A stretch of 30,217 bases of DNA from a virus, in the IMG/VR virus record IMGVR_UViG_3300028103_000056, positions 1 through 30,217 of that record; one strand, 5' to 3'. The notes under the pieces are model-generated. The model saw only the letters and a program-made list of their open reading frames with translations. It did not search any database and was not told the origin of the DNA. Below, one piece after another: positions 3,116-28,645 of this stretch. Made by a program: the position numbers and the translations under genes. Every line of letters begins with the position of its first letter. Position 1 is the stretch's first letter.

Positions 3116-4561
3116 ATGGCATTTTCATCTCCAGTAGCAGCCCCCAGTGGTTTAAATGGGTCGTTGCTATCTTTATTCGATGCAAGTTACACTACAGGTT
3201 TATTAGTGCCTCACTACTTGCGTACTCTTAAAAACAAATTCGGTGATAACGGTCTTTCTGACTTCCAACTTTTGATGGGACTTGGAATGAAGCGTGGTGT
3301 TCAAAACGTAACAGGATGGCACTGGGAAAAGGGTCTTTATGACGCTCCGGTTGTAGTTAACGCTACTGTTGCTGCTCCTGGTGCAGGTGTTGCATTAACT
3401 TTTGTTTCTGACACTTCAGCAGGTACTGTTTCAACACCTCCATCTTTCCCATATGTTGACCAATTTGCAGGTTATACTTATGCTAAAGAAGGGCAAATCT
3501 TAATGAACACTAGTGTTGCAACTTTACCATTGTATCTTGTAACAGGTGTATCTGGTGTGAACGTAACTATCAAACCTTTGAACTCATCTACTAACGAAGC
3601 CGCTACAGCAGGTGACGTATTTGTAGTTACAGGTTCTGCTTGGGATGAAGGAACTGCTCAACCAATCTCTTCTCAATCTTTTTGGACTAAGTATTCTTGG
3701 AAGACTCAAATCTTCAAAGAAACTTACGAATTAACTGGTACTCAAAAAACTAACGCTCCTCAATGGATGGAAGTTGAGTATGGTGATGGTAAGTCTAAGA
3801 AGATGAATGGTTTCTTCTACGAAGGTCAAGATGAAGCTGAATATCGTTTAATTAAGCAGATTGCTTTGTCTATGATTTTTGGTCAGTCAGCTAACAACAC
3901 TGGTATTCCTCAAACTTTCTCTGGTTTGGATGCTGAAATCACTTCTCGTGGTTACACTCACTCAGCAGGTGGTGCAGGTGCTTTTGGTGTTGCTGATTTG
4001 CGTACTATTGCTTCTGTAATGAGCAGACGTTATGCAAGTAACTTGTTCTTAACTTGGTTAACTAATGAGCTTTATAGCGACTTGAACCAAGAAATTTCTT
4101 CAGGTTCTTCTGCATACGAATTAGGTAACGCTAACTTGGTTAATGCTACAACTCAAGCCATTGCCGATGTATTCTTCGGAGGTAACATGGAGCAGACTCA
4201 AACCTTGTTCAGCACATTCTCATGGCAGGCACTTAACATAGATGGATACAACTTTGCATTAAAGAACGCTCGTTTCATGCAAGATCCTGCTACTACTGCT
4301 GCTAACGTATCATCAGGTCTTCGTCAACGTGGATGGGTTATTCCATTGAACAAAGTTGCTGATGCTGAGGGTGTATTGCGTAACCGTATCGAGTTGGTTT
4401 ACAAAGAAATGGATGGATATAGCCGTTTCATGGAAATCACCGATGATGGTCGTGCTTCTGCTCGTAAGATTGGTCCATATGATGTGGCAAAACTTTATTT
4501 GTCATCTGACCTTGGATTTGACTTCTTTACTTTGGAGCAGTTCACAAGAATCACAGCCTAA
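3116..4561 (+). CDS. Major capsid protein (HK97-fold type)
   Basis: A 481-residue protein, within the usual range for capsid proteins of crAss-like and related phages. It probably makes the icosahedral shell. An N-terminal arm (about 1-60, including LLVPHYLRTLKNKF) is followed by a beta-rich, Ala/Val/Thr-rich stretch (about 82-175) that could be an insertion domain, then an alpha/beta body and a C-terminal stretch (KEMDGYSRFMEI...) fitting the end of an HK97-like P/A domain. Its codon use is clearly more biased than that of its neighbours: 14 of 16 arginines are CGT and AAC and TTC are favoured, as expected for the most abundant virion protein. A strong terminator follows 21 bases after the stop. 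The HK97 fold is inferred from phage type and arrangement; a structure prediction would settle it. Confidence 0.85.
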   Translation: MAFSSPVAAPSGLNGSLLSLFDASYTTGLLVPHYLRTLKNKFGDNGLSDFQLLMGLGMKRGVQNVTGWHWEKGLYDAPVVVNATVAAPGAGVALTFVSDTSAGTVSTPPSFPYVDQFAGYTYAKEGQILMNTSVATLPLYLVTGVSGVNVTIKPLNSSTNEAATAGDVFVVTGSAWDEGTAQPISSQSFWTKYSWKTQIFKETYELTGTQKTNAPQWMEVEYGDGKSKKMNGFFYEGQDEAEYRLIKQIALSMIFGQSANNTGIPQTFSGLDAEITSRGYTHSAGGAGAFGVADLRTIASVMSRRYASNLFLTWLTNELYSDLNQEISSGSSAYELGNANLVNATTQAIADVFFGGNMEQTQTLFSTFSWQALNIDGYNFALKNARFMQDPATTAANVSSGLRQRGWVIPLNKVADAEGVLRNRIELVYKEMDGYSRFMEITDDGRASARKIGPYDVAKLYLSSDLGFDFFTLEQFTRITA

Positions 4562-4581: not shown

Positions 4582-4613
4582 AAAATGGGGGAGGGTAAAA
4601 CCTCCCTCATTTT
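4582..4613 (+). terminator. Terminator hairpin after the capsid gene
   Basis: A 13-base-pair stem, left arm 4582-4594 and right arm 4601-4613, with one G-T wobble (4588/4607) and a six-base loop GTAAAA. The core is GGGGGAGG against CCTCCCTC, flanked by AAAAT/ATTTT so that each strand ends in a T run. It could therefore stop transcription in both directions. It probably limits read-through from the capsid gene and may protect the capsid mRNA 3' end. Confidence 0.85.
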
Positions 4614-4653: not shown

Positions 4654-5517
4654 ATGCTATTTGCAGACAACAAAAAATTCGTCTTAGATGAAGAAGATTT
4701 GGCACAATTAACCTCTGTATTTCCTGACTTTATGAAAGGGAAATCTCTAAGAGTTAATTACAACGAGAATGTTATTCAAAAGATAGAGACTAATAATCCT
4801 AGAACACCTCACGTTTTTTCTAAGCCATTACATTCAATTTTATTGGTTAGTAAGTGGATTGATGATGAGACAGGTGAGCAGAGAGAAATTAGATATTCAA
4901 ACCAACCTCCTAGATATAGAGGTGATGGATCTTCTTACTTCCCGGAGAAACATTTGGTAATTGATAATTCTTTTTCTTTCAACCCTTCGAAAGATAAAGA
5001 GTTATTATGGTTTTGTTATAACTTTTCAAACTTGTTTTCTAATAGCCTTGTTGGGACTCATTTATCTCCATTTAAGTTCTTAGTAGAACAAGCAGATGCC
5101 TTGGCTAACACTAACGATGTTATTGCAGAATCAAATGCTAAAATTGCTCTTGCACAGATGTCTTTAGAGAAGTTAAAGCAAATTGCTGAGAACAAATTAT
5201 CAGTAGGTGTTGATGACACTAAAGAGATTTTATTATCTAAGTTCTACAGCACAATGGATAAGAACAAGCAATTTAAGTCTTGGATTATCGGTGGCGTAAC
5301 TAAAATGCAAGACAATACAGAGGCTTTAACTCTTGTTGAGCAGGCTGGTGCTTTGGGTATTTTAAAGTCAAATGAGGATGGTTCTCAAACAATCCTTGAC
5401 TATAATGGCAAAGAAACCGTTGTAGCCGACATTTCTTTTGAGGATAAAAATGCTTTAGCATCTTATGTAGGAAAGGAGAAAAAGTTGTTTACTACATTAA
5501 AAAAAGCATTGTCGTAA
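4654..5517 (+). CDS. Unassigned virion-module protein, 287 aa
   Basis: I do not recognise a function. The N-terminal half (about 1-140) looks beta-rich and holds DDETGEQREIRYSNQPPRYR, then a KDKELLWFCYNFS stretch. Short segments of this type (Asp-Lys-x-Leu-Leu-Trp-Phe) recur, as I recall, in uncharacterised proteins coded beside capsid genes in Bacteroidota phages. The C-terminal half (about 145-287) is helical, with a likely coiled coil around 165-190. No signal peptide or membrane segment is seen. The gene sits between two terminator hairpins (4582-4613 and 5542-5564) and no convincing promoter lies between 4614 and 4653, so it is probably expressed by read-through from the capsid transcript, at a lower level. 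A capsid auxiliary protein, head completion factor or packaged cargo protein are all possible. Confidence 0.6.
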   Translation: MLFADNKKFVLDEEDLAQLTSVFPDFMKGKSLRVNYNENVIQKIETNNPRTPHVFSKPLHSILLVSKWIDDETGEQREIRYSNQPPRYRGDGSSYFPEKHLVIDNSFSFNPSKDKELLWFCYNFSNLFSNSLVGTHLSPFKFLVEQADALANTNDVIAESNAKIALAQMSLEKLKQIAENKLSVGVDDTKEILLSKFYSTMDKNKQFKSWIIGGVTKMQDNTEALTLVEQAGALGILKSNEDGSQTILDYNGKETVVADISFEDKNALASYVGKEKKLFTTLKKALS

Positions 5518-5541
5518 GCCAACCAAAATAATCTTTAAATA

Positions 5542-5564
5542 GGGGTACGAGTGTACCCCTTTTT
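5542..5564 (+). terminator. Terminator hairpin with T run
   Basis: A perfect 7-base-pair stem, GGGGTAC (5542-5548) and GTACCCC (5553-5559), closes the tetraloop GAGT and is followed by five T's (5560-5564). This is a standard intrinsic terminator, 24 bases after the preceding stop codon. A promoter-like box begins only four bases downstream, so this short gap appears to end one transcript and begin another. Confidence 0.85.
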
Positions 5565-5567
5565 ATT

Positions 5568-5575
5568 TATCTTTG
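5568..5575 (+). promoter_or_regulatory. Putative Bacteroidota-type -7 box (TATCTTTG)
   Basis: TATCTTTG matches the TAnnTTTG -7 consensus of the Bacteroidota housekeeping sigma factor. It lies directly after a terminator and 18 bases before the ATG at 5594, so transcription would start near 5580. No clear upstream TTTG (-33) element is present at the expected spacing. The following ATAATTTAA resembles ATAATTAAA after the box at 13392. The same octamer also occurs inside coding sequence at 7023-7030, so a match alone is weak evidence; position makes this one credible. Confidence 0.5.
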
Positions 5576-5593: not shown

Positions 5594-6802
5594 ATGGCTA
5601 CATCTCTTAATTTTAATACAAGCACAAAGAAGTATTATGGTACAACATCTCCATCTGCTACTATTTATGCTAAGGTATATGACCCTTCGGGTAATTTGAT
5701 TTTGAATAAAAGTACAACTGGTAATGCTTTTATTACAGCTTCAACGTCATCCTCTTTATATAACCTTCCACTTGATACTTCAGGAAACGTAGTACAGGGT
5801 GTATACACATTTGAGTACGATACTGTGTCGGGTATGCCTGCTCCAACAACGGAGACATTTACATATTTAGGCACAACTCAAAAGACTTTATCATTCGCTG
5901 TATCAAATGATTGCAACTTCTTCCCAAATGGGCAGATTTCTGCTGTTGATTCTACGGATTATGGTAGCCAAACCATTGTTACTAGAAGCATTGAGTTATA
6001 TTATCCTAATGGATTAGTTCCTGCACCAGTTACAAATCCTGTAGTAACAACTACAGCGGCTACATTGGTTGTAAATCAGTTAGCAACTGGGATGTGGACT
6101 GGAATAATTACTACTAATTTATCTTATACTCAAGACGATGGCTTAGTTATTTTCTATGAGTTGAAAGATGTGTTGAACCACAATGTTGCTTGTAATGCTC
6201 AGTTATGTAGTGTAAACTCTTGCTTAGATAAGATTACCTCTGCATACTCTGCTGACATTGCTTGCGGATCATCTACTCCAAGATATGCTAATGAGTTAAC
6301 TCTTGCTAATGCTTATTATACACAATACCAAATCGAAAGGTCTTGCGGCAATACAGAAGCTGCTGATGCTTATGCACAGAAAATTGTCAATCTTGTTGGG
6401 CAAGGCGGTTGTTCTTGTGGCAGCACTTGCGGTTGTAGTGATTGCACTTCTTGTGACACCGATATTGTTCCTCAATGGATTAATAATACGACTAGTGAAA
6501 CAGGTTATAAGTCATATGTAGCTCTATTAGAGCAGACAGGAACTTCTGACCCTGTAGTAACAGTTTTAGAAAACAGCATTGGAGATATTGTTTGGACAAG
6601 ATTTGCTTCAGGTATATTCAATGGAACTCTAGCAAATGTGTTTACAGCAGATAAGACCTGGTGTTCTATTACAGTTCCAACTAATGCCTATTCAGGCACA
6701 GTTGCTTGTGGTAGGTCAACAGATAGTATTGTTAAGGCATACTATACTGATGGAGTTGGGTCATCATTAACAGTTCAAGTAGAAATTAGAGTATACTATT
6801 AA
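5594..6802 (+). CDS. Cysteine-rich beta-structured virion-module protein, 402 aa
   Basis: Not assignable to a known function. Residues 1-200 are Ser/Thr-rich and look like one or two Ig-like beta sandwiches (for example SATIYAKVYDPSGNLI). Residues about 195-270 look like a helical hairpin carrying spaced cysteines (VACNAQLC, NSCLDK, DIACG, RSCGN). It ends in a dense cluster C273, C275, C279, C281, C284 and C287, six cysteines in 15 residues. A second beta domain (about 290-402) follows. In total there are 14 cysteines, unusual for a cytoplasmically assembled phage protein, suggesting bound metal or disulphides formed outside the cell. It has its own terminator and putative promoter upstream and lies just before the connector genes. 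A decoration, tail-attached or host-contact protein is plausible. I recall similar helix-plus-Cys-cluster proteins in other Bacteroidota phages, also uncharacterised. Confidence 0.6.
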   Translation: MATSLNFNTSTKKYYGTTSPSATIYAKVYDPSGNLILNKSTTGNAFITASTSSSLYNLPLDTSGNVVQGVYTFEYDTVSGMPAPTTETFTYLGTTQKTLSFAVSNDCNFFPNGQISAVDSTDYGSQTIVTRSIELYYPNGLVPAPVTNPVVTTTAATLVVNQLATGMWTGIITTNLSYTQDDGLVIFYELKDVLNHNVACNAQLCSVNSCLDKITSAYSADIACGSSTPRYANELTLANAYYTQYQIERSCGNTEAADAYAQKIVNLVGQGGCSCGSTCGCSDCTSCDTDIVPQWINNTTSETGYKSYVALLEQTGTSDPVVTVLENSIGDIVWTRFASGIFNGTLANVFTADKTWCSITVPTNAYSGTVACGRSTDSIVKAYYTDGVGSSLTVQVEIRVYY

Positions 6803-6808
6803 TAGATT

Positions 6809-7558
6809 ATGAATCTAGACGAAATATTAAACCAAGTATATAATAAGATAGGTAAGGATGCCTATGGTAACCTTATTACGCCTGAAAAATATAATGAGGC
6901 TCTTGACTATGTTAATATTCAAAAGATAAATGATTACCTTGAATTATTTGAGCAAGACCAAGAGATAGCAGATAACATTAGGCAATTTATTGTAACTCTT
7001 GGTGACAATAACATAACTCCTTTATCTTTGGATAGTTATGGGTATGGTGTATTACCAAGTGATTATTTAAGATACGGTAGAGCAAGTAGATATGATTTTT
7101 TAAATACAGATACCGGATCTGAATTAGAATACAGGCATATAGAAATGTTAACCAATAAAGACTTTGCTTATAGGTTATCAACATCTCTATATAAACCAAA
7201 TTTAGCGAGACCGATTTGCACCATTCAAAATGATAAGATATTGGTAAGACCTCAAGGTATTCCTGCCATTAATTTTACATATGTAAGGTATCCACTAACT
7301 CCGTTTTTTGATTATGATATCATAACAGCAACAGGAATGCCTTACTACTTACCTCCAGGAACAACTCATCAAAATACAGCAACTCTAACTTGTAATCCTA
7401 ACTTTACTCCAGGTGACCCAAGTTTAAGTGTTGAATTTGAATATTATGATGACGTTCATATTGACTTGGTAAATGAGTTGACTAAATACTTTATGATAAA
7501 CTTGAAAGACTTGAATTCTTTAGGTGTATTAGAAATTGAAAAAGGATTGATGCCATGA
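6809..7558 (+). CDS. Connector/ring-type head-tail protein 1, 249 aa
   Basis: The first of three neighbouring genes that look like stacked ring components between portal and tail in podoviruses (T7 gp11-like tail tube or crAss-like 'ring' proteins). The N-terminal 70 residues are helical, followed by VLPSDYLRY (LPSD at 82-85), a motif also present as LPSDFMRY in the third gene, then beta strands (IQNDKILVRPQGIPAINFTY) and a final helix (DLVNELTKYFMINLKDLNSL). This helix-beta-helix plan is that of the gp11/gp4-like adaptor family. The gene begins seven bases after the preceding stop and overlaps the next gene by four bases (ATGA), so translation of the two is probably coupled. The specific ring position cannot be told from sequence. 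Confidence 0.6.
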   Translation: MNLDEILNQVYNKIGKDAYGNLITPEKYNEALDYVNIQKINDYLELFEQDQEIADNIRQFIVTLGDNNITPLSLDSYGYGVLPSDYLRYGRASRYDFLNTDTGSELEYRHIEMLTNKDFAYRLSTSLYKPNLARPICTIQNDKILVRPQGIPAINFTYVRYPLTPFFDYDIITATGMPYYLPPGTTHQNTATLTCNPNFTPGDPSLSVEFEYYDDVHIDLVNELTKYFMINLKDLNSLGVLEIEKGLMP

Positions 7559-13416: not shown

Positions 13417-14082
13417 ATGGCCGGATCTCCATTTCCTTATGCTCAACTTGCTGATACTGCTGTAGGTGTAGGCACAGGTGTATATCAATTGATAAAAGCT
13501 CGTCAGTTACAAAAACAACTTGGTGAAAGACCTGTATATGATTTTAATTATGCAAAAGATGCTGTTGCAGGACAATTAGCATTAGCCCAAGGTGAAGCAC
13601 CGGGTCTTTCTCAGCAAATGACTGCCGCCAATCAATCTCTTGCAAATACAACACAAAATATTGCAGCTATGGCCCCATCTGGAGCCGCAGGTTTAGGTGC
13701 TTTAGTTCAATCAGGTGCAGCTAATCAGCAGATGCAAAATGATATATTAGCAAATGCTCTCCAACAAAAAATGGGACTACAGCAAAGCTATTTGCAAGGG
13801 TTATCTAATTTAGAAGGGTATAATCAAACAGCATTTGACATTAATAAAATGCAACCATATCAAATGAAGTTAGGTGAAATATCTGCTCTTAAACAAGCAG
13901 GTATGCAGAATATAGGCGGTGGAGTTTCTAACTTAGCACAATCTATTGATGCTTCAAGAATGCAAGAGTCTCTAACCGATAGTTATTCACAAATATCCTT
14001 GCAGCAAATGGTTGATTCAGGACTTATAAGTGAAGAAGCCGCAAGAAAAATGGGTTGGAAAGGAACTAAATCATCACAATAA
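13417..14082 (+). CDS. Small ejection (internal virion) protein, T7 gp14-like, 221 aa
   Basis: An Ala/Gln/Gly-rich helical protein. An N-terminal weakly hydrophobic stretch (LADTAVGVGTGVYQLI) precedes RQLQKQL, then long Gln/Ala/Asn-rich helices with GLGALVQSGAANQQMQ and a Ser/Gln-rich C-terminus. Size, composition and place, first of three genes of increasing size after the tail nozzle gene, match the small ejection protein of podoviruses (T7 gp14, P22 gp7/gp20 class), which leaves the virion with the DNA and joins a channel in the host envelope. There is no sequence motif that proves this, and a tail-needle or cargo role is an alternative. A putative promoter lies in the gap upstream, and the next gene starts one base after the stop. 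Confidence 0.55.
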   Translation: MAGSPFPYAQLADTAVGVGTGVYQLIKARQLQKQLGERPVYDFNYAKDAVAGQLALAQGEAPGLSQQMTAANQSLANTTQNIAAMAPSGAAGLGALVQSGAANQQMQNDILANALQQKMGLQQSYLQGLSNLEGYNQTAFDINKMQPYQMKLGEISALKQAGMQNIGGGVSNLAQSIDASRMQESLTDSYSQISLQQMVDSGLISEEAARKMGWKGTKSSQ

Positions 14083-14083
14083 T

Positions 14084-15505
14084 ATGGCAGAACCATTTAC
14101 ACAAGTACCACAAGGACAAGTAGGAACAGGAACTGCTTACGTTCATCAATATCGAGATAATTCAGCAGCTATACAAGCATTAGCTGAGGCTAAACGTCAA
14201 CAAAGAATAGATCGTGAAAAGAAATTAGCGAGTCTAAAGGATTTTAATTACGGAGAGGTTGTTGACCAAACTATGGCTAATGAAATTAGAAATGATTACA
14301 AGGAAGGTTTGGACTTTTTTGCACAAGTATTTGTTAATGGTGGTGACCCAACAAACCTAAGCACAGAGGAGGGAAGGATGTTCTCCGAGTTTAAGCAAAA
14401 AATACAAGACAAGGCTAAACAGGCAAATAGTGCGGATGCTAGGTACAAAAAATATTACGACATTATAGCTAATGATAAGTCGCAAAACTACGACCAAGAT
14501 GTTTGGACTGCGTTAAGTGAGAAATATGAAAATGCTAAAACAGTAGATGACAAAATAGATGCTGTATCATCTTTAGACCCAATTACATTTACAAATTTTG
14601 ACTATACAAAGTGGATAGATGATGCTGTTGAAGATGTTGCAAAAGATGTGCTTATAAAAAAACAGACAAAAGACAAAACGCAATACGAGCAGGATTATGC
14701 AGATAAATTAAAAGGAATAGCATTGGAGTTAGCAGGCACTAACGAATACGATGTTGCTGAAGTGAAATGGGAAAAGAAAAAGGCTGAAGGAGACCCTGCC
14801 TTTCAACAACCAGATTTTGCAACATTTTTAAATGAAAGAATTAACGCTGAAGGAGAAAGAAGATTAAAAGAATACGAATCATCTAGAAATCCAATTAATA
14901 TTAATCAGAGAGTTAGTTTGCCAGGTCAAACTACAGCAGGAGGTGGTACTGTTTCAACTGTAAATACAGGAGCTGTTCAATCACTAGTTTGGTTATATAA
15001 TGAGCCAGGGAAAGTAGTATTAACGAGACGATCTGATGGTAAAATAGAAGGGAAAGCAACTACTAAAGATTTGAAAGAAATACAAGGAGGTAATGATACT
15101 GATTTAAAGGTTTTTACTTTTGAAGGCGAAAACGTAGTTGTTGACCCAGTTCAATATGCTAAAAATTTCCATTATCAACTAGGAAAAGAGTACGTTGTTG
15201 GTGATGATCCTAAATATAAAACTTTAGATATAAATTTAAGAAATTATTACAATTCTAACACTCAAAAAACAGCAAAGTTATCTACTGTGTTCTATGACCA
15301 AGGTGCTAATATGTGGGGGCAATCAAAAGAGGGAGGTTATTTTCTATTAGCACCTAGAGATACTCATAGCCCATTGTGGGAAAATCCGTCAGCAGAATTA
15401 AATGCCAAAACAATATTGACTACTTTTTTTGGGATGAAAGATGTTGAGGGCAAGACAAAAGAAGAGATATTTCGTTTAATTAAAGAAAAATTTCCATTAT
15501 TTTAA
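14084..15505 (+). CDS. Middle ejection (internal virion) protein, T7 gp15-like, 473 aa
   Basis: The start is placed at 14084 (MAEPFTQVPQG), in the junction TAATATG one base after the preceding stop. The frame is open further upstream to 14030, but that would overlap the previous gene by 53 bases with an unlikely N-terminus. Residues about 25-260 are charged and helical (AEAKRQQRIDREKKLASLKD ...); a Gly/Thr-rich linker (QTTAGGGTVSTVNTG) leads to a mixed beta/helical C-terminal part (about 290-473). No catalytic motif or membrane segment is visible. As the middle of three genes increasing in size after the nozzle gene, it fits the gp15-like ejection protein that would bridge the small protein and the giant one. 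This is inference from order and composition; a scaffold-like core protein is equally possible. Confidence 0.55.
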   Translation: MAEPFTQVPQGQVGTGTAYVHQYRDNSAAIQALAEAKRQQRIDREKKLASLKDFNYGEVVDQTMANEIRNDYKEGLDFFAQVFVNGGDPTNLSTEEGRMFSEFKQKIQDKAKQANSADARYKKYYDIIANDKSQNYDQDVWTALSEKYENAKTVDDKIDAVSSLDPITFTNFDYTKWIDDAVEDVAKDVLIKKQTKDKTQYEQDYADKLKGIALELAGTNEYDVAEVKWEKKKAEGDPAFQQPDFATFLNERINAEGERRLKEYESSRNPININQRVSLPGQTTAGGGTVSTVNTGAVQSLVWLYNEPGKVVLTRRSDGKIEGKATTKDLKEIQGGNDTDLKVFTFEGENVVVDPVQYAKNFHYQLGKEYVVGDDPKYKTLDINLRNYYNSNTQKTAKLSTVFYDQGANMWGQSKEGGYFLLAPRDTHSPLWENPSAELNAKTILTTFFGMKDVEGKTKEEIFRLIKEKFPLF

Positions 15506-15515
15506 ATAAGAAGAT

Positions 15516-18500
15516 ATGTCATATTCAGAAGAGTTATACAACAAAATAGTAGCAGAACCAGCTTTAACTAATGAGGCTACTTATGATGAGTTTTTATCAA
15601 GTATTGAAGACCCGGAGAAGTTAAAGAGCGTATACTTCAAAGCGAAATATTTTGACCCATATAATACTCCATCTACTATAGAGGAGTTTTCTGAATTATT
15701 AAAAAAAAAAGACGAGGGAGATTTTGGAGATTCGTCTCAGCCATTAGAGCAGGATACAATGCCTGTAGAAGAGACTACAAGTCAAATCCCTACGGTTGGT
15801 ACTGAGGATGAATTAATAGACGCTAATTCTCAATTTAAGGCTAATATAAATGTACCTATGAATGCAATAGGTATCAATCCTATTAATTCCATTTCATTAC
15901 AAAATGAGTCCAACAATATTACAGAAAATAAAGAGGTTGCTAATAAATCAGCAAATCAATTAGGTGATGTAGGTCAAAATAATATGTTGGAAAATTCCAA
16001 TATAAATGTATATAACTTAGCAAAGAAAGCATCTCAAAATTTTAAAAAATATATTCAATCACCACTTGCTCAGGCTGAAATTGATATAGAAAATGACATA
16101 GAAGAGCTTGGGAGTAATTTAGAAGACCCAGAAAAAAGAAAAAGAAAGGGTGAAAAAAAAGCCACCAAGGGTGATGTAAAAAATGCTTATACTGAATTAA
16201 TTGACAGCAACAGAAAAACTTATGACGAATCAGTAGAGTCACTTGGAAAGACACAAGTATATGGTGTTAGAGTAGATGGAAATAATTACGAAATAATTTA
16301 TACAAATCCCGACAGGGGTGGTGTAAATCAAGCTAATTTATATCCGGGAACAGTTGGGGATGCAACATGGAATGGTTATGTCAGTTCAAGATATCAAGAG
16401 GGGGGTGTTTTAGGATATGATAAAAATCCAGAGGCGTGGGAAGATTTAAAAGAAGCTGTTATAGATATAGATGGATACGATATTTCAAACTTAAACGACC
16501 CTAATAGGTCAAATGACTTACAAACAAATTTAGCGTCTCACCAAGCAAAATATAATATTGCTACTGGTCTTACGGTTTCGCTGGGTGAAGTAGAAGTAGA
16601 TACAGATAAAAATGCACGAGAAAAAAAATACTTTAGATCCTTAACTGAAAACGCAAGATTCTTTGCTAAAGAGCGTTGGAAAAAAGATGAGGAGATGGCT
16701 GAGTTTAATAACGCTAAATTAACTGAAGAAGCCACTTCTTATATGAAAGATGCAGAGGATAATTTTTATAGTGACATTTATAACAACCCTTTGACCAATC
16801 AAATTGGTAATGCAGCAGGTATATCACCATCAGATTTAATGTTTAAAACTAATGAGGATGCTGTAAAAAATCAAATAAGGAGTTGGATATATGAAAATGG
16901 CTTAATAAACGCTCAGGGGGATAGTTATCAACCAAATAAAGAAGAATTAGAAAGACAAATAAACGTCATATATAATAACATGAGAAGGGATGCCCAATAT
17001 CATTTTGGAAGGGCTTTCATTGACAACGAAAAGTTAAAAGGGAATCCCGAACTTTCAAAAGGAGAAATAAATGATATGTTCCAAAAAATTCAGCAGAGTG
17101 GTTTAGACTACAAGGTTGGAGATTTAGATAAATCGGAACAGGCTTTAAGTGATTTTGGTATTAGAATATTTGACTCATCTAAAAATGATTATAAGTCATA
17201 TTATGAGTCAAAAGCATATGTATTAGATAAGACATCTAAATTTAAAGGGACTACAGGCAGAATAAATGCTATTAATGGTCGAATTCAAGACTTGAGTCAG
17301 CAGTTAGAAAATTTAAAATCTAAGTATAATTTACCAGACGAAACATTTATTGAGGAAACTGGAAAAAGGATTGGTGATAGTAAAAGAAAATTAAATGATC
17401 TTAAATCTGAGAGAGATGCCCTGCTTATTGATGTGGAAGGCGAGTATTATAAAGACGAGGCGGCTTCTACAAGAGGTGCTGAAATAGAGAAAGAAATGCA
17501 ATCCCTACTTATCAATAAAGATGGGGAATTGTTTTGGAAAGATGAAGTGTCTCAAAAAAAAGGAGAAGAATTGCAAAAAGAGTTGCAAGGTTTAATAGAG
17601 AAGAAAAAAGGCAAGTCATTTAAAGACGATAATTCTAAATCAAAATATGACGAATTAGAGTCTCAAATGCAAGCATTAATTAATGAAATAAATGAAAGCT
17701 CAAAAACTTTAGATCCTTTGAATTCATATTCTAAAGAGGCTAATAGGTTGGTGGCTAAAATAAATGCTTTACAAAGTAAGTTAACAAATATTGCTAATAG
17801 TAGTGAAGAGTTAAACTCAATAAAAGAAATACAAAGTCAACTTGAGTCTATAGATAAATATAATTCACAAATTGAGAATGCATATACTGATGAACATGGT
17901 GTTAAATATTTTAATGATGACTCAGGTATGGGATTTGAAAGTCGAAGAAGACAAAATTCATACACCGAGTCTGATTTAAAGAGGTCTGCAAAATATGACT
18001 CTGGAGGTGAGGCTTTTATTAAAGGTTTATTTGGTGGCGTTGCTTCATCTGTTTTAGGAATTGGCTCAACAGCTTTGTATTTAAATCCTGCAACTGGATT
18101 TCTTACAGAAAGTGATGAGACTTTTGATTCGGCAGATTTAGTTAAACTTACTTTAGATCAAGTATCAAAAGATGTGCAATCTTTTCAGAGTAATCCTTAC
18201 TATAAAGATTGGGGATTAAATAGTATTTTATCAGGTGTAGGTGGGGTTGTTCCTGACTTGTTAGCTGTAGCTGTTACTGGTGGAGGTGCAGGTATTACTC
18301 AATTAGCAACAAAGTATGGTATGGGGCGTGCTATTTTAAAAATAGCAACTAGTCCTACTACGGCTTATTTTACTATAAGAAGCACAGGTAGTTATGCCTT
18401 AGAGTTAGAAAAGGCTGGTTATAGTCCTGCATCTGCTTTAGCTATGGGAGGTATGATAGCACAAGTTGAATCTATGATGGAGTCCTTGTTGCCAGAGTTT

Positions 18501-21500
18501 GGTTCTTCGGCAGAAAGAATAGCATTTAAAAATTCAACAAAAGAACTGATACAGGCCGGAATTAAAAACGGACTTTCTTTAGATGAAATTTTAAAACAAG
18601 TTTCGTCTAATTACTTTGAAAGTGCTTTAAAGTTTGGTTGGGATGTTACTAAACAGGGTCTTAAAGAAGGTGGTTATGAAGAATTCCTTCAGGGTTTATT
18701 TTCTAACACTTCTATGAATTTGCTTAAAGGTGAGAGCATTGCTTTATACGACTTTAAAAATGGAAAGATAACGGAAAATGGTAAAGAGCTATTAAAATCT
18801 GCCGCTATTGGATCTATAGTTGGGGGTGGAATGCAGTCAGTACAGTCTTATAAAGATTGGGTAAATTCTTCTGCAAATAAAGAGAGTGTAAAACTTGTTC
18901 AATTAGAAATAGGTAAAAATTATTCTTTAATTAAAGATGAGGTTTTAAAGGGAAATAAAGATTTTCAAGATAATGAAGTATTAAAATATTACGAAACTAT
19001 TTCAAACACCTACTCTGACTTAAACAATAACCCAACATTTAAAAACTCCGGTGATTTAGAGCAGTCTGAAATTTTAGATAGGACATTAAAATTAGATGAA
19101 TTATTAAAGGCTCAAAAGGAATTATCATCTAAGGGTATAGTAGACAAAAGCCTTAATGCTAATATTGAGGCAAAGCAAGAGGAGTTGTCTAAAATATTGG
19201 ATGTTTCAAATTCACATACAAATGAAAGAAACGAATTAAATGAAAAGTTGAAGTCTATAGGTGTAGATGGGTATAGTTTAGCAACAAATGGTGTAATTAC
19301 AAATATAATATTATCTCCTTCGGTTACTGAAGATAAGGCAGATGGTGTTATATTACAAGCAAAAGAATTAATTAATAATAAATATAAATCTCAAGAAGAT
19401 GCCGTTCAAAAGTCAGAAACAGGTGAAGTTCCTGTACAGCCAGAAGCCGCAGTTAGCGAACAAGTGGAGGAAGGAAAATCCCAAACAGAACCTCAAGTCT
19501 CTACCGAAGAAAGTTCGGGGCAAAAAATAGAGCCACATGAAATGGGTGAGTTTGATGAGAAGTATTGGGGTGTAGATGAGGCAACTAGTATGGATGAAGG
19601 TTATTTGAAAAATAACTTCTGGGGATCACCATTGAAACAAATAGCCGCCTTCTTTAAGCTGGGTCTTGGTAGTGATAAAAATATGCGAGAAAAGAGAATG
19701 ACAGCATATATCTTCAAGCCAAAATCATCACCTAAAAAATCATCTGAACAAAAAATAAGATATCCTGATATTGCACAAATAGCAGATGATATTTTACGTT
19801 TATTTGAAAATGGTGAAGGTAAGAACGATCAAAAGATAATTAATCGTGCAAAAGAAGTAGGGATGAGTGATGAGTTAATAAATAAATTCATTGACATTAA
19901 AAACTCAATACCTGAATACTCTGATAAAGAAGAAAAATATAGGTACGAAAAAATAGCATTCTCTCAAATGGAGAACGCCATAGGCGAATATATGGCTTCT
20001 CAAGGAATAGAATCTTCTGATGCTGATCATCCATCTAATTACGACCCTAATAGTCGAGAAGAAGGTGATCTTCCTCACGCATATAGATTCTTTGGAAGTA
20101 AAGGAAATACTGTATTGGGTGCTGTTGATATCACTCCTGAATTAGAGGCTAAATTAAATGACGAAACATTAAGTGAAGAGGATAGGGGAAGAATGCTTGC
20201 AGAGGCAGCAGGAATAGAGTACGACCCAGATGCTTTTGTTCACCTCAACACTACAAATGTTGCAGATTACGCTAAGAAAAACAATCTTAAATTACAAGGT
20301 GGGACAAAGGTTGAAGAGCAAGAAGATGTAGAGGAAGAAAGTTTAACTGATGAGGAATGGAATAATATGGTGTCTGAGGCTGAATCATTAGGAACGGACA
20401 TAAATCAAGTTGCTCAAAATGTTAAACAAGATACTCGTAAGAGTAAAATAGTTGAGCAGATTAGAAAGGGTGCTAAGTCTCTCGCTTCTGTATTTCCAAA
20501 CATGAAAATTGTTGTACACGAGAACACAGACTCTTATAACAAGGCAATGGATGTGTTGGGTGGTAGAAGGAATTCACGAGGTCAATTTGTTTATATGCCG
20601 ACTAGTGATGGTTCTTACTCAGGGGCAATACATATTAACTTACAAAAGGCAAATGGAAGGACAGTTCCTCACGAAATTGCTCACGCTGTAATGTTAAAGT
20701 TGTTTGGTGAGAATGCTGAATTGTTTAAAAACTTCCGAGATAAAATAAAGGACCTTGCTAAAGGTAGAACAGTTAAGTTAAAGAACCCGGATGGAACTGT
20801 TGAGGAAGTATCTTGGGATGACTTGGCTAGTGACTTAGCGGATCGTTACGAAGACAATGAGCGTGGTGAGGAATACCTTGCTGAACTTACTGGTATTGTA
20901 AACGATATTGACTTAGAAGATAAGGGGTCTCGTAATATCTTCCAAAAGATAGCTGACTTTGTAAACAACTTTATCAGCAAATTCACAGGCTTAAAGGCAA
21001 TTGATGACACCTCATCTGCTGAAGAGGTATTGGAATTCTTTGAGGGATTAAGCGGAAAGATTTCTAAAGGGGAGAAAATAGATACTAAAACACAAATAAA
21101 TGATGCTATTGAAAACAATATAGCAGGTGAGGTAGTTGTTGCAGGTGTTATAAATAAAGAAGCAATTGCTAAATCTCAAGTAATTGATACGCCTATTTTA
21201 AATGTATATCAATCTGAAGAGGTTGAAACATTGCCTGTTATTTCTATGCAAGATATATTTGATAAATATGATGGAAAAGTAACAGCTATAAATTCAGACC
21301 CTACTCGTGTTGGTGAATTAACATTAATATCGGGTAAAAAAATATTTATGTATGGCGGTCCTAATTATGCTTCTTTAAAGAAAAATATAAGTTCAAATAT
21401 TGGCTTTGCTACAACTCAACTAAAAAAAGTATTGTTAAATCTAAAGTACGCAAAAAGTTTATCTAAGGATAAACCTGTAGCTACTTTAATTGTAACTCAA

Positions 21501-24500
21501 ACCCCATTATCATTATTAAGCAATTCTTATTCATTAAGATATGTGTTAGATGCTATATCTCAATTACCTAAGTCTGTTAGAAAAAGCAAGGAATTTAAAA
21601 CAGAGTTTTTTGGAAAAGATTTAGTTACATTGAAAAATGCTTTTGGTGAAAAATCGTATAATGAATTTGTAAAAAAATACAGCAATATCGATTTGTCTGA
21701 TGATGCACAGATGGATAAGATGATTGAAGAAATGGCATATAAACTTGCGGATGATAATAACCCAGCATCATTTAAAGCAAGAGGAGCTTTTTTATCTAAT
21801 TTATTAGGAGGTATTGCCGAAAATAAAAATAAAGCAGGTTCAGAAAAAAAAGTAGGTTACTATTCTAAAACTCCAAGTAAATTTATTGCCAAGCAGTTAT
21901 TTGAAAGATTTGGTTTAAATTCAGAAAAATTATTTTATGAAATAGGCGAAAAAAGCATTGTGGATGCGTATATGAATGAAGGTGTTTGGGGTATTGCTGT
22001 AGGTGGTTTTGAAACTGATCCTAATGCTGACGCTGAATCTGTTCAATCTGGTGGAGTAAAACATCCATTGTTTAATGCTAAATTCCCAGGTAAAAATCAT
22101 TTCGCATTAAATGGAGGTTATCTAATTGATGAATTGTTTTTACCCGAAGCTATAGAAAAAGAAGGTGGAAAAATATACATAAAAAAGGCATCTCAAATGT
22201 TGGCTGGAAGTATGTATTTAAAAGGTGTTGTTGAAAAGGCAGAACCTAAAATAAAATTAAGCGAAAAGAAAAAAGGTGTAAAGGCAAAATCTCAAGTAGA
22301 CACTAACTCTGATGCGTTTTTTAATGAAGCTGATAAAGTATTTCCAAATGACCATATATTAGGTGGATACGCTGTTACTGATGAGAACAATAAATTAATA
22401 GGCAGAGTTTCATTATCTCAAGTTAATGATAATGTTGTTAAAATTGATGAGGTAGTTAGTGAAAAACGAGGTGAGAGAACTGGTAATGGATCTGCAATAA
22501 TGAATAAGGTTATTGGATTAGCAGATAAAAACAACGTAACTCTTACTCTTACTCCAAATTTGATACTTTCTCTTAAAGCAAAAGGGTTTGAAACTCCTTC
22601 AAAACTAGAAAAGTTTTATGAGAAATTTGGTTTTGAAAAAGATAAGGGAAGAGCTACGATGACTAGAAAACCTGTCTCAAAAGGCGTAAGGGCTAAGTCT
22701 CAAATAGATATAAACGCAGAAGATAGCCCACTATACAAAAAACGTAGTAAAGAAGATGTGCCATTTATCTCTAACGAAAGGGTAGAAAAAGCTATCTTGA
22801 ACAATGAAGTTCCATCCGACCAAGTTAAAAGATATAAAAACGCCAAGCCTTTAGAAGAAGGTCAAGTGATTGGTGCAAGGTTAAATCTTAACGGTACTCG
22901 TGACGCAGGATTTGAAATCATGTCTATACATACAGGATATAGAGCAGGTGGTAAGGTGCTTACATATCGAGGTAATGTCACTTTAAAAAATGTTCAGTTT
23001 AATGTATCTCAAGGTGCAAGAGAGGCTATAGTTACAGGTAAAAGAGAAAAAGAGCCAATGGCTGTAGCAGCAGGTGAGTATACAACTAAAGAAGCAAATT
23101 TCGATGGAGTTGAGGTTAAATTCAATCCAAAAAAATTACACTTGTTTGTTGATGAAAACGGAAGAGCAATAAAGTCAGCTGAGGAAGTGACCATCATGGG
23201 TCATAGGGCATATGCTCGTGGTGTTATTACTTACTTTGAAGAGAATGAAGATCCAAGGGAAGCAAAGTATACAGCACCATCAGAAGTTAAATTTGCGAAG
23301 ACAAAAGACGAGTTGGTAAACATTGCGGAGGATTTAAGAAACGGTGATATTACTGTAGAGGAGTTGGGGGTTGAAGATGTAACACCAGAGGAATTAGCAA
23401 CAACTTTAGAAGAAGTTGCCGAGCAAATGGAGGATAATGTTGAGCCTGCAGAAGTTGTTAAGTCCTTGCCTAATAAAAAGGCAAAAGATGATGTAGAAAC
23501 CATCATGGCTAAAGTGATTGCAGCAAACATTAAATCTCGAATGGATGTTAGCGGCAAGTCTAAGGATGAGGTTTTGAAAATGGCTATCATAGATTATTTG
23601 AAATCCGAAGGTGCTTCAGGTAATTTGTCAGACGCGGCTGACCAAATGATAATGGGATATCCTACACTTATGGAAAAAGTGGACAAGGAGTTGGGTGCTG
23701 CCGTTAAAAAAGAAAAAGCTAAAGTTCGTGCTGAAATGACTCCTGAGCAAAAGCAACTTGCAGACACTATTAAAAGAGAGGCACAAGCGGCTTTAGAAGG
23801 ATTTAAAGAAGGTAAGAAGGAAGGTAAGGCTGAGGGTATAGAGAAAGGTAAAGAGGCAGGTAGAAAGGAGGGATTCAAGGAGGGCAAGAAAGAAGGTAAG
23901 GCTGAGGGAAGAGAGATGGGAAGAAAAGAGGGTATTGTTGCAGGTAGAAAGGTTGGTTTCTTTGAAGGTATATTCAAAGGCGTGGCTAAGGCTGAGTCTT
24001 CTCAACGTACAGTTGCTAAAGCTGTTCGTGATGCCATCAATGAACTTAAAAAGACTGCAAAAATATCTGACGCTGTTGCTCGACAACTTGTAAAACGTGC
24101 AGTAGGTATAACTACTGAAAATGAACTTACCGACTATATGAATTTTGTTAGTGAGGTTCTTGCTAATAATGAGATTGCTACAGCATTGAGTGAAATTAAG
24201 AAGTTGCAAAAGCAAGCCCTGAAGAAAAGAACTTACCAATACTACACTACTATTCGTCAGTTTGCTAAGATGCCTCTCTTTAAGAATCGCAATCTATTAT
24301 TTGACTACGAGACTTTAGAGCAATATAGAGACGCATTAAAACAAATTGTAGAGGGTAAAGTTCCTGACATCTCTGGAATGAATGGAATGCATAGTACCGG
24401 AACTTCATTGTTTAATTATATGAGCAATGTAGCTTTATCAAATAAACAAGGGTTTGATATCTCTAAGGCACAACAAGTAATATCTGACATTCTTCAAGGT

Positions 24501-27500
24501 GTTTATTTTCAGCCATTCAAGATAAACAATATTGATGACTACAGGAAGTTTAGAAGACAAGTTTCTAAACTGAGAACAAACCTTGGTCAGTTATTGGCAA
24601 AGGGTGTTATTACCCAGGTTGATTACGATAACGCTATGGGTAAATTAGTTGACCTTGATGCCACTTACGAAACCTATACAGATTATTATCAAAAGCAAAT
24701 TGACGCTATTAAAGAGCAGTTAATAAAGGATATATTTGATAATCAGATTAAGGATGTAGTTGACTTCATGAACAACAATCCAGATGTCTTTACAGACCCT
24801 CAAAAGGAACTCATCAGAAAATTAGCAGGAATGAATTCTGATGTCCTTTCTGAAGTTTTAGATATTGAAGATGCTGACACATTGAAAGAGGTTGTCGACA
24901 GCATGGAAGATGGTTTTGTAGACGAGTCGGCTCTGAGAAGATTGATAAGTAAGGCAGAGATAAGAGGTAACAGAGTAGGAGAAAAGTTAAACGCTCAGTT
25001 GGGTGGCATCCGTTCCAAGTATAAGAAAGGAGATATAGGATTCAAACTATTTAGAGACTTGATGACAAAGGCAGTAGTGTTTTGGGAGTCTCAATTAGGA
25101 TTAACTGAAAAAGGAGCGTTTTGGAACTATGTATCTCAACCTATTACTCGTGCGATTAATCAATGGACTAAACTTTATGACGAGGGCATTAGACAATTTA
25201 TGTCCGAAGTAAAAGATATAAAGTTCTCTGGCACTACAAGGGTTTACGATCCGGTGTCTGAGAAGTATGTAGACATATCCAACGAAACTTATTCTCGTAT
25301 TAAGATTGGATTGGTAGGTCACATTTTGGATAATGCATGGAAGAAAGTTAACTCTCCACAATCTAAAGAGGATATGATGACAGACTGGTTGGGAAATATC
25401 TTAAACAACAAGTCAATTGCAATTAACTTTCAAAAAGGCGGTGATTACAATATGGCTATTGTTATGGACATTTATAAAAAGTTAGCCAGTGCTTATTCTA
25501 ATGATAACGGAGGTATAAACCAAGAGGCTTTGTTAAATGCTTATGAAAAAGGCGGTAAAAGTCGTGACAACATATTAAGTAAAGGTGAGCAGGAGTATTA
25601 CGATGCTTTAAGAAGGCAATTTGAAACAACCTCTGAATACGTTATTGCTGCTAATTCAATGCGTCAACAGAACTCCGAGACCAATCCTTATTATATGCCT
25701 CGTTCATATTTTGCAGACACTCGCAACAAGAGAACGTCTTCAGATATTAACAAGGAAGTTGCAGGAAAGGCAGGTCAAAGAGCCTCTGCAACTTACGAGC
25801 GTGTAGCAGGATTGCCATACGAAGCTCTAGAGTTTAATGTGGACAAATTGCTAAACACTCATTTAGAGGAAGTTTATAGAGACTACTCTTTAACAGAGGC
25901 AAAAGTATTTGTAAATGAAGTGTTTGCTAATGCTCGTGATAACGCTAAAACTGAAGATGAAGTTATTCTTTTGGATCAGCTACAAGAGTTAGCAAAGGGA
26001 AGAATTGAATTTGCTTTAGAGGATAGTGCAAACTTGCAAGCCCTAAGTGCAATTACAAAACTATTTGTAACAAATACCCTTATTGGAATTAAGCGTACAC
26101 CTGTAGAATTCTTAAACAACTTAATAGCCTATTCAACAGGTAACAGAAGCTCAAAGTCTATTACATTACCATTTAATAAGAAAGAGCTAGATGATACAGA
26201 CCAATTGTTGAAAAGATTTAATTCTTCAATTTATGCAGACGCTCCGAAAAGACAAGTTGTTTTGGGTAAGCGTATAATGGAAAAATTAAAGAAAGGTAAG
26301 ATGGATGCCAAATTAAAACAAGAGGCTGCAATAAACCTTATCTATCCTTACTTAAACAACACAACTTCCTTTATGCGTAAGGGTGAGTGGAAGAGTAATT
26401 TTGACCGGGCATTTAAGGAGTTGACTGGAGAAAAATTCTCATTCAGCAAGCATTTTAATGACCCTAAATACAACGAGGCTATGACAGAAGCAGCGAGTTC
26501 TGCTGACTTTAATATGCGTAGGATTATGAAGGGTGGTAACAAGTCAGAGCAGTTGCAATATGTAAGACTTGCTCCTGAATGGATGTATAAGATGTTTGGA
26601 AATAAGAGAAAAGAAAGAGGCATGGTTTCTATGAACTCTTATTCATCTCTATTCCTTACCCTTTACACCGGGTTCATTGGTCATGATGTTACTAATATTG
26701 AGGAGGGATTCAAGAAGACAGTAACAGGAAAGGATATTAAGGATGGTCTTTCTCAAATGGGTGGGGCGGCTTTCAGATTAAGCCTATATCCAACTTTAAT
26801 GGTAATTGCCGATGCTTTACTCAAGGCTAGCTTTGGAGACGATGATGAAAAGAAAGAAGGTGATGAGACATTGAATTCTCTCACTACACCTGAAGGTTGG
26901 TCAGACTTGTTCAAAACATTAGCGACTCAGATGGCATCAACATATGTGTCTGGTAAGTATGGTAACATTGCAAAACTTGTTGGGTCTTTTGCCTTAGATG
27001 CGGCTTACACATTTGGTGATGATAACCAAAAGAAAATGATTAAGACCATCATGAGAGAGCTGTACTTTACAGACCCTATGGATTGGGAACAGTCAAGCCA
27101 AGCAGCTAAGGATTATGTGTACAGAGCATCGTCTATTTTAACACCTATGGTTGGGATGGTTGCTAAAGAAATAGAAGAAACTATAGAAGACTTGCAGGAT
27201 AAATCTCCTTATGAGAAAATTACTGTAGGTGATATTATAGAATATTTCACTAAGGATGAGGAAGGATCTTCAGCATGGCAACTATTTACAGGTATGTTAA
27301 TGTTGGGACAAGGTTTATTTGCCGCTTCAGGAACTCCAATACCATTTGTGGATGACTTTGTAAGAATGTTTGATGACTCAGTTAAAAACCAAGAGGTAAA
27401 TAACAGAGACATGAGAACAACCTTTGCAACTGAAACAGGTGAGTTGATTGATATGAAAGACCTAGTATTGAATGACAAGGGTATGGTAGATATCAATATA

Positions 27501-28147: not shown

Positions 28148-28645
28148 ATGAAAACACCTGAAAAATTATCAATACAGGTAGTAAATTTATTACTTCCTCG
28201 ACTTCAAGACGAGTTAAACGCCTTTTATTTCTATCGTTCAGCAGCAAATTGGTGCAAGAATGTAGGGTACTTTAAGGCAGGGGAATTCTTTACTGAGGAG
28301 TCAGAGACTGAGTTAAAACACGCTAAGGCAATAGAAAACTATTTGGTAGATTGGAATGTGACACCGGATCTACCAAATGTATTAAAGCCCACACTTGAGT
28401 TCCGTAACCTAATAGACGTAATAACTCAAGCCTATGATATGGAATATAAACTATATGAGGCTTATGAGGAAACAAGTATGCGTATATTTAAGATAGGTGA
28501 CTTGTGTGTTTTTGATTTTCTCCAGTCATATAGGGTAGGGCAAAAAGAATCTGTGGCTGAATATAGCGACAAGTTAAATATGCTTGAAGGCACTAATGAA
28601 CTGAGTAAGTTTGAAATGTTAATGCTTGAAAAAAAGTTATTCTAA
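28148..28645 (+). CDS. Ferritin-like di-iron protein, 165 aa
   Basis: Length and helix pattern fit a non-haem bacterial ferritin (four-helix bundle). Helix A contains DELNAFYFYRSAANWC, helix B FFTEESETELKHAKAIENYL, helix C YDMEYKLYEAYEET, helix D FLQSYRVGQKESVAEYSDKL. With an offset of five, residues match the iron ligands of E. coli FtnA as I recall them: E22 (17), E55 (50), H58 (53), E99 (94), Q132 (127) and E134 (129). However position 130 is S135, 49 is T54 and 126 is G131, so sites B and C look weakened. It would oxidise and store iron or consume peroxide. It starts 20 bases after the giant gene, and its stop overlaps the next start (TAATG), so it belongs to the late/lysis operon. Dps is less likely because the helix-B EXXH site and length fit ferritin better. 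Confidence 0.8.
   Translation: MKTPEKLSIQVVNLLLPRLQDELNAFYFYRSAANWCKNVGYFKAGEFFTEESETELKHAKAIENYLVDWNVTPDLPNVLKPTLEFRNLIDVITQAYDMEYKLYEAYEETSMRIFKIGDLCVFDFLQSYRVGQKESVAEYSDKLNMLEGTNELSKFEMLMLEKKLF

Follow-up and report, generated by a model that had tools for sequence, protein, structure and literature searches.

The window, i.e., the whole stretch of 30,217 bases that was analysed, is a single IMG/VR virus record of an uncultured phage and contains an ORF of 402 residues and 14 cysteines that probably encodes an accessory and dispensable surface fibre. As we read it, this fibre has a constant base that would dock on the 249-residue protein encoded directly downstream (g249) and a swapped tip that would bind glycans. 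On its 5' side lie the genes of the portal, a probable scaffold, the major capsid protein (MCP) and a 287-residue protein (g287), and on its 3' side those of proteins of 249, 193, 247 and 1498 residues (g249, g193, g247 and g1498) (Table 1). The MCP was matched to phrog_13704 (3.1e-9), to PDB 9in6 (3.8e-7, profile A10), and to Pfam SU10_MCP at an E value of 6.5e-4, a match that falls short of the cut-off of that family. PDB profile searches with g249, g247, g1498 and g287 yielded no convincing match; judging from the gene order, g249 is probably of the connector or ring type. The portal shows remote similarity (21-29% identity among the matches listed) to those of the Manatee Spring record MW202828, Tenacibaculum phage Gundel_1, Cellulophaga phages (e.g., phi13:2) and Elemovirus. 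From these remote portal relatives, and from Gundel, which is podoviral according to its description in PMC8776804, we infer the host phylum and a short tail; the window phage would thus probably infect Bacteroidota. Matches of the fibre protein to MORN_2 and phrog_34705 were at chance level and were rejected.

Table 1. Features of the fibre gene and its surroundings in the window
Feature	Position	Strand	Basis or remark
Major capsid protein (MCP)	3116..4561	+	Pfam, PHROG, PDB profile matches
g287, 287-residue protein before the slot	4654..5517	+	5' flank in 25/25 distinct slots
Intrinsic terminator (hairpin and T run) behind the capsid genes	5541..5567	+	Hairpin 5541-5560, fold z = -3.66
TATCTTTG, matches the Bacteroidota -7 box TAnnTTTG	5568..5575	+	Probable operon promoter
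Accessory fibre gene (probable), 402 aa, 14 Cys	5594..6802	+	ORF, 25-row alignment, slot survey
Beta domain 1 (N-terminal), residues 1-91, modelled as Ig/FN3-like	5594..5866	+	Block pLDDT 88-96 (residues 1-90)
Beta domain 2, residues 99-198, with invariant Cys107	5888..6187	+	AlphaFold2
Helices, residues 202-268	6197..6397	+	AlphaFold2 and alignment
Cysteine cluster, residues 273-287, C-x-C-x3-C-x-C-x2-C-x2-C	6410..6454	+	Proposed hinge or clasp
C-terminal tip domain, residues 292-402	6467..6799	+	tblastn, alignment, BFVD matches
g249, 249-residue protein after the slot	6809..7558	+	3' flank in 25/25 distinct slots
g249 segment 62-106, proposed fibre docking site	6992..7126	+	Kept in 23 gene-bearing slots

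The optional nature of the gene emerges from a survey of its slot. A total of 97 loci with both flanking genes were fetched, many of them from the same contigs, and these were reduced to 25 distinct slots. The fibre gene sits between g287 and g249 in 23 slots and is cleanly absent from the other two. In the gene-less slots, 74 bases separate the stop codon of g287 from the open frame of g249, and the phages concerned (L077, L078/L079) keep the portal (70%), the MCP (64-65%), g247 (72%) and g1498 (71-72%). The fibre gene was not found elsewhere in the L077, L078 and L079 records, which measure 8.4, 32 and 38 kb and of which none is known to be complete; each of the 13 records checked for copy number carries just one copy. 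An optional gene located beside virion genes fits the class of accessory phage fibres.

The two AlphaFold2 runs, with mean pLDDT values of 66 (12 rows) and 71 (25 rows), agree on the layout of the protein. Two beta domains, the first of which presumably faces the particle and is well modelled in the 25-row run, are followed by helices modelled at residues 202-223, 232-250 and 254-265/268 (block pLDDT 56-66), a part that contains Cys205, Cys210, Cys224 and Cys251, with Cys200 just ahead of it. The subsequent stretch 270-303, which includes the cysteine cluster, is rich in Gly, Ser and Cys and is predicted to be unstructured (block pLDDT 23-32), and a C-terminal beta domain is modelled from residue 304/305 to the protein end. 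These models agree with the sequence-only reading, made from the bare letters of this DNA, in placing the cluster between helices and a beta domain, the cluster itself being modelled at very low confidence. Fold comparisons of the N-terminal domain with the PDB returned Z scores of 6.0-8.3 that reflect a common arrangement only, and for the N-terminal half, a Z score of at least 8 was reached by 7 of 998 chains in one search and by none of 998 in the other, all being generic Ig/FN3 pairs. Such matches were set aside as a clue to function since the arrangement is too common. A phage head fibre is absent from the PDB fold matches listed for the N-terminal half, which proves nothing, and a fibre profile of 12 members found nothing at E <= 1 among all PDB chains, a result that leaves room for a distant relation.

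The cysteines are the most conspicuous feature of the protein. The translation confirmed the earlier count of 14 cysteines, located at positions 107, 200, 205, 210, 224, 251, 273, 275, 279, 281, 284, 287, 357 and 372, six of which fall within residues 273-287. When 14 cysteines were placed at random, six of them came to lie within 15 residues or fewer in only 22 of 100,000 placements. Across eleven other virion-module proteins, 23 cysteines are spread over 8,843 residues, and at this frequency a protein of 402 residues would have at least 14 with P = 7e-12. Conservation was scored over residues 1-295, which contain 12 cysteines, in an alignment of the window protein and 24 relatives. Cys107, Cys200, Cys205, Cys251, Cys279, Cys281 and Cys287 are invariant in all 25 rows; the invariant share is 7 of 12 cysteines versus 69 of 283 other residues, a modest excess (Fisher p = 0.015). 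Cys224 is kept in 23 rows and Cys210 in 12, and within the cluster, Cys275 is kept in 11 rows, Cys284 in 13 and Cys273 in two. The number of cluster cysteines is seven in 23 of the 25 rows and six in the window and L010, and the register and spacing of the cluster shift between clades. With the addition of L080, a distant relative of 34% identity, all of the above invariant residues apart from Cys287 were invariant in 15 of 15 rows. The tip residues Cys357 and Cys372 were kept in two and five rows, respectively, of another 15-row comparison. Non-conservation of the cysteines in homologues had been named beforehand as the outcome that would refute the sequence-only reading, and the check was passed by a core of seven and nearly so by Cys224, while Cys210, Cys275 and Cys284 occur in about half of the rows and Cys273 and the tip cysteines in few. 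Because the number of cysteines in residues 1-295 ranges from 12 to 14 and is odd in some clades, there is no sign of a set pairing of disulphides within the chain. Conservation of cysteine parity between clades was looked at in the same alignment and dropped.

Two readings of the cluster have to be weighed. In one, the helical cysteines and/or the CxC/CxxC cluster would bind Zn, Fe or Cu and thereby fold the hinge and lock the oligomer. The dense CxC and CxxC spacing, the six cysteines that remain invariant down to the relative of 34% identity, and a ferritin-like protein encoded in the same genome are in line with such a metal-thiolate site; yet no metal-site family is found among the Pfam or PHROG matches of the window protein, the cluster changes register and spacing between clades, and an extracellular Gly/Ser/Cys linker fits disulphides equally well, so that we regard this reading as unlikely. 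In the other, to which we give an even chance, the Gly/Ser/Cys hinge would be reduced in the cytoplasm and oxidised after lysis, leaving chains stapled by disulphides at the junction of base and tip. Stapling of parallel chains is preferred to one precise metal site because the segment is Gly/Ser-rich, predicted to be unstructured and subject to register shifts. Given the coiled-coil and collagen-like stalks found in relatives, the chains would oligomerise, probably as a trimer, and covalent stapling would mean that a new tip needs no interface matched to the base.

The ferritin-like protein is encoded at 28148-28645 (Pfam PF00210, 6.3e-20), and in the relative G003, a similar-looking protein of 166 residues (61162-61662) adjoins a gene for an endolysin of the peptidase M15 type. 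Other proteins of the virion module are devoid of cysteine, namely, the MCP (3116-4561) and, at the module end, those encoded at 13417-14082, 14084-15505 and 15516-28127. The last of these is a giant protein of 4203 residues, with an HExxH motif at residue 1719 and a match to Pfam Phage_L5_gp82 over residues 2465-2566; the giant protein of G003 (3777 residues) likewise has no cysteine. Selection against cysteine in proteins that are ejected via the tail possibly accounts for this.

The comparison of relatives, comprising 26 IMG/VR loci and the three further contigs L043, L044 and L049, reveals a constant base and exchanged tips. Residues 1-290, i.e., the two Ig/FN3-like domains, the helices and the cysteine cluster, align across the members compared. 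What comes after the cluster differs: the tip domain follows directly in the window; a coiled coil and then a related tip are present in L019, L021-L024, L026 and L027; a coiled coil is also seen in L020, whose end is cut off by the contig; and collagen-like repeats occur in L049, where the contig is cut off, and in L018 and L025, together with a CBM5/12 match below the curated cut-off and, in L025, additional TAIG-type repeats. The C-termini of L028 and L029 are unrelated to the window tip, and that of the distant L080 is also a different one. Overall, a tip-domain match was obtained in 19 of the 23 gene-bearing slots.

Exchange is also visible at the DNA level, where 10 pairwise alignments were examined in bins of 120 bases. 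L022 and L028 share 69-98% per bin through the cluster, the cluster bin itself being at 94%, then 47-54% in the tip, and 80-91% after the stop codon. For L002 and L018, the change falls near base 240 of the gene; it is confined to the last part of the tip for L004 and L005, whereas L002 and L004 show no such break. Among the 10 pairs, mosaic borders follow the cluster and coincide with the stop codon, and some changes are abrupt. L018:6001-7899 is a natural hybrid, with an upstream side and a domain 1 like those of L002 and a domain 2 and hinge like those of the other clade; the junction of the two beta domains can therefore be a starting point of exchange as well. The DNA mosaic and the differing tip domains speak for tip exchange between relatives and would be consistent with exposure of the tip. 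Because the base is kept and the tip exchanged, the base is likely to point inward and the tip outward, where it would bind host or environmental glycans.

The earlier suggestion of an exterior protein gains from this context, i.e., the slot among virion genes, the modelled Ig/FN3-like domains, and a tip in common with proteins annotated as structural or as tail fibre. The gene might instead encode a cement or decoration protein with a main role in particle stability and not in binding, an idea to which its location next to capsid genes, its richness in cysteine and its modelled Ig-like domains lend something; given the exchange of long adhesin-type tips and the absence of the gene from some relatives, we consider it quite improbable.

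Clear differences exist between the distribution of the tip and that of the cysteine-rich part. The tip, a domain of about 100 residues, forms the C-terminal end of gp46 of Flavobacterium phage lotta8-1 (Pippivirus lotta8-1) and of gene 13 of Olleya phage Harreka_1, with 30% and 38% identity to the window, respectively, and shares 32% identity with an Elemovirus 'DUF285' protein. It was detected by tblastn in lotta8-1 (E 2e-9, L006 query) and Elemovirus (1e-4, window query), and by a BFVD match in Harreka_1 (8.9e-7). The best BFVD matches include the lotta8-1 structural protein and the Harreka_1 tail fibre, with the tip in common; gene 13 is called 'hypothetical' in its own record and 'Tail fiber protein' in the BFVD table. 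The tip was also found in contigs of Flavobacterium chilense, F. collinsii and Arenibacter aquaticus. In contrast, the constant part was unmatched in whole-record searches of lotta8-1, Harreka_1, Elemovirus, MW202828, phi13:2 and Gundel_1 with a profile that does detect the L080 and L010 records. It was matched in one of 299 genomes drawn from the Flavobacterium chilense family and in none of 395 drawn from the phylum, searches that, being sampled, can miss copies, and was not confirmed in any of 81 stretches in genome_contigs. The single match, L136 (G191:C1:393117-393287), corresponds to the helical Cys region (E 0.0015), has two internal stops, and is either a decayed remnant or due to chance. 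The cysteine-rich constant part is thus known from one phage group and the distant L080, all IMG/VR contigs. The proposal that this protein type is recurrent in Bacteroidota phages consequently holds for the C-terminal tip, not for the Cys module, which appears, among the collections searched, to be restricted to one phage group.

The evidence on the attachment site comes from g249. This protein has 214 residues in the gene-less L077 and L078 as compared to 248-249 otherwise, and its segment 62-106 retains in these two only 16% identity to the window, with 14 gaps, whereas three other parts are at 53-62%. In the distant, fibre-bearing L080, the situation is reversed, with 44% identity in this segment and 32-38% in the same three other parts. 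A D-x-YGY motif within the segment is present in 23 of 23 gene-bearing slots (L025 reads DNYGY) and in neither of the two gene-less ones. As a control, windows of 45 residues were slid over the MCP, scaffold, g287, g249, g193, g247 and g1498, the portal being left out since it is cut in L080. Of 3,014 such windows, L080 was closer than L078 to the window phage in only 45, of which g249 contributed 43 (largest excess nine residues) and the MCP two (excess one residue). Another g249 segment, 181-202, is absent from the gene-less phages, yet the fibre-bearing L080 lacks it too, and a link of this segment to the fibre was therefore rejected. Since segment 62-106 is lost or replaced in phages that have no fibre gene and kept by the most distant fibre-bearing relative, these data point to g249 as a candidate docking partner. 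A segment lost in this way would be the expected trace of a binding partner that has disappeared; as the two gene-less slots are close kin, the change may represent a single event, and a chance linkage is possible.

The constant N-terminal half would accordingly dock on the particle via g249, a putative neck or ring protein by gene order. It is because of the g249 result that attachment at the neck or tail is now somewhat favoured over the capsid surface, the slightly poorer choice; prior to it, the preference was slightly for the head. The competing view is a head fibre whose constant part sits on capsomers and not on the neck, by analogy to gp21 (a trimer) and gp29 (a dimer) of phi-crAss001, gp8.5 of phi29 being another head fibre (PMC10172136). 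The position beside the MCP and g287 genes, the dispensability of the gene and its modelled Ig-like domains are all compatible with it, as is a separate fibre-like cluster that follows the lysis gene of G003; however, the change tied to gene loss sits in g249, and the MCP and g287 show no such segment. We hold a head fibre to be a real, though less probable, option. Gene position alone is not decisive, since in phi-crAss001, the portal gp20 is succeeded in the numbering by a head fibre (gp21) as well as a tail fibre (gp22) (PMC10172136). The three head fibres are anchored by the N-terminus and expose their C-terminal domain, as the window protein would, and gp29 has a predicted Ig-like end (PMC10172136). 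The profile search of the PDB chains gave no sequence match to them, and the window protein, with its putative attachment site, differs in its constant part, in which some 290 residues comprise a pair of Ig-like domains, the helices and the cysteine cluster.

The G003 cluster consists of a 1017-residue Cys-rich repeat protein (L053:3531-6584, corresponding to G003:63531-66584), with 19 cysteines of which many lie in an N-C-x repeat, and a protein of 670 residues; the former, a second Cys-rich protein, is probably a fibre or spike of that relative.

We therefore lean towards a neck-docked fibre with a disulphide-stapled hinge. A further-reaching version, doubtful in our estimation, is that the g249 docking segment and the fibre base form a plug-in unit that is gained and lost together, the cluster serving as a redox clasp that acts after release. 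The hinges, reduced during assembly, would zip outside the cell into a covalent disulphide ladder at the very site of tip exchange, and recombination could join any oligomeric tip, be it a beta tip, a coiled coil, or collagen plus a carbohydrate-binding module, to one and the same base with no need to evolve a matching interface.

The signals ahead of the gene have a bearing on its expression. A hairpin and T run precede the fibre gene in all 27 sequences examined; across 18 aligned rows, the stem is almost invariant and the loop varies. The box behind it reads TATCTTTG in 17 of the 27 sequences and TATCTTCG in 10; the latter departs from TAnnTTTG, reported as the -7 box of Bacteroidota sigma-A promoters (PMC9723704). 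At the same place, L080 has, as judged by eye, a different hairpin and TATTTTTG. Bacteroidota sigma-A promoters also have an upstream -33 TTG element at the usual spacing, and by eye, no TTG is present 17-23 bases upstream of the window box, a stretch filled by the terminator. In pieces of two related phages, TAnnTTTG precedes 11 of 51 free-standing genes versus 1.3 expected, one of the 11 (L052:52) being an artefact to be dropped, namely, the fibre gene itself cut by a piece border. Neither motif is rare in the window (TATCTTTG, two sites versus 2.6 expected; TAnnTTTG, 40 versus 42.3), so the box is credible only for its position and conservation. A sigma-70 promoter scan of the window gave 60 sites, fewer than the shuffled mean of 65.8, and was dropped.

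Both gene-less slots carry the same hairpin and TATCTTCG directly before g249, and the signals therefore serve the whole downstream operon. The sequence-only reading had correctly recognised the terminator and promoter-like box directly upstream, but its view that the gene is transcribed on its own signals did not hold, given that the next ORF starts six bases on (6802 to 6809) and that the signals are retained ahead of g249 in relatives that have no fibre gene; the idea of a separate dosage is weakened for the same reason. The hairpin is thus a terminator that closes the capsid genes, and the box is the probable promoter of an operon whose first gene, where present, is that of the fibre; the promoter is no more than probable because a -33 element is lacking and TATCTTCG replaces TATCTTTG in 10 of the 27 sequences. 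A second G+C-rich hairpin, at 4589-4608 between the MCP and g287 genes, may act as a partial terminator and so adjust the dosage of capsid proteins.

Modular Ig-domain fibres are already known. Hoc of phage T4 is dispensable and is not known to have a Cys-rich hinge. It shares with the window fibre the Ig-like domains, a constant attachment part and a variable exposed part, but is anchored by its C-terminal domain, whereas here the N-terminal part is constant and the C-terminus exchanged (PMC10385173). T4-like fibritin is another modular case, a collar fibre with swapping of C-terminal domains (PMC3797505). As to disulphides, virion proteins of Agrobacterium phage Milano, including receptor-binding ones, are cross-linked by them, but as defined pairwise inter-subunit bonds and not through a hinge packed with cysteines where tips are exchanged (PMC10811340). 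In the tail-fibre hubs of phi-crAss001, fibres are docked on a ring-protein barrel and disulphides stabilise the hub, but they join hub and ring proteins, whereas the window cysteines lie within the fibre (PMC10172136). The g249, g193 and g247 proteins contain two, three and two cysteines, and the PDB profile search found no homology of g249 to the phi-crAss001 ring proteins. Among the papers listed by literature searches, none showed a Cys-packed hinge in a phage fibre, which is no proof of its absence from print; what appears to be new here is a conserved hinge of this kind at the point of tip exchange, and it may lock the fibre once outside the cell.

If this interpretation is true, an accessory fibre can retain a single base while its tips change without restraint, a covalent hinge replacing the co-evolved interface, and the g249 result would also tell which virion protein such a fibre plugs into. 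The group offers natural controls in the form of phages with the gene, phages that have none, and a common base that bears four or more kinds of C-terminus. Furthermore, the coupling motif would be of possible use for protein display on laboratory phages.
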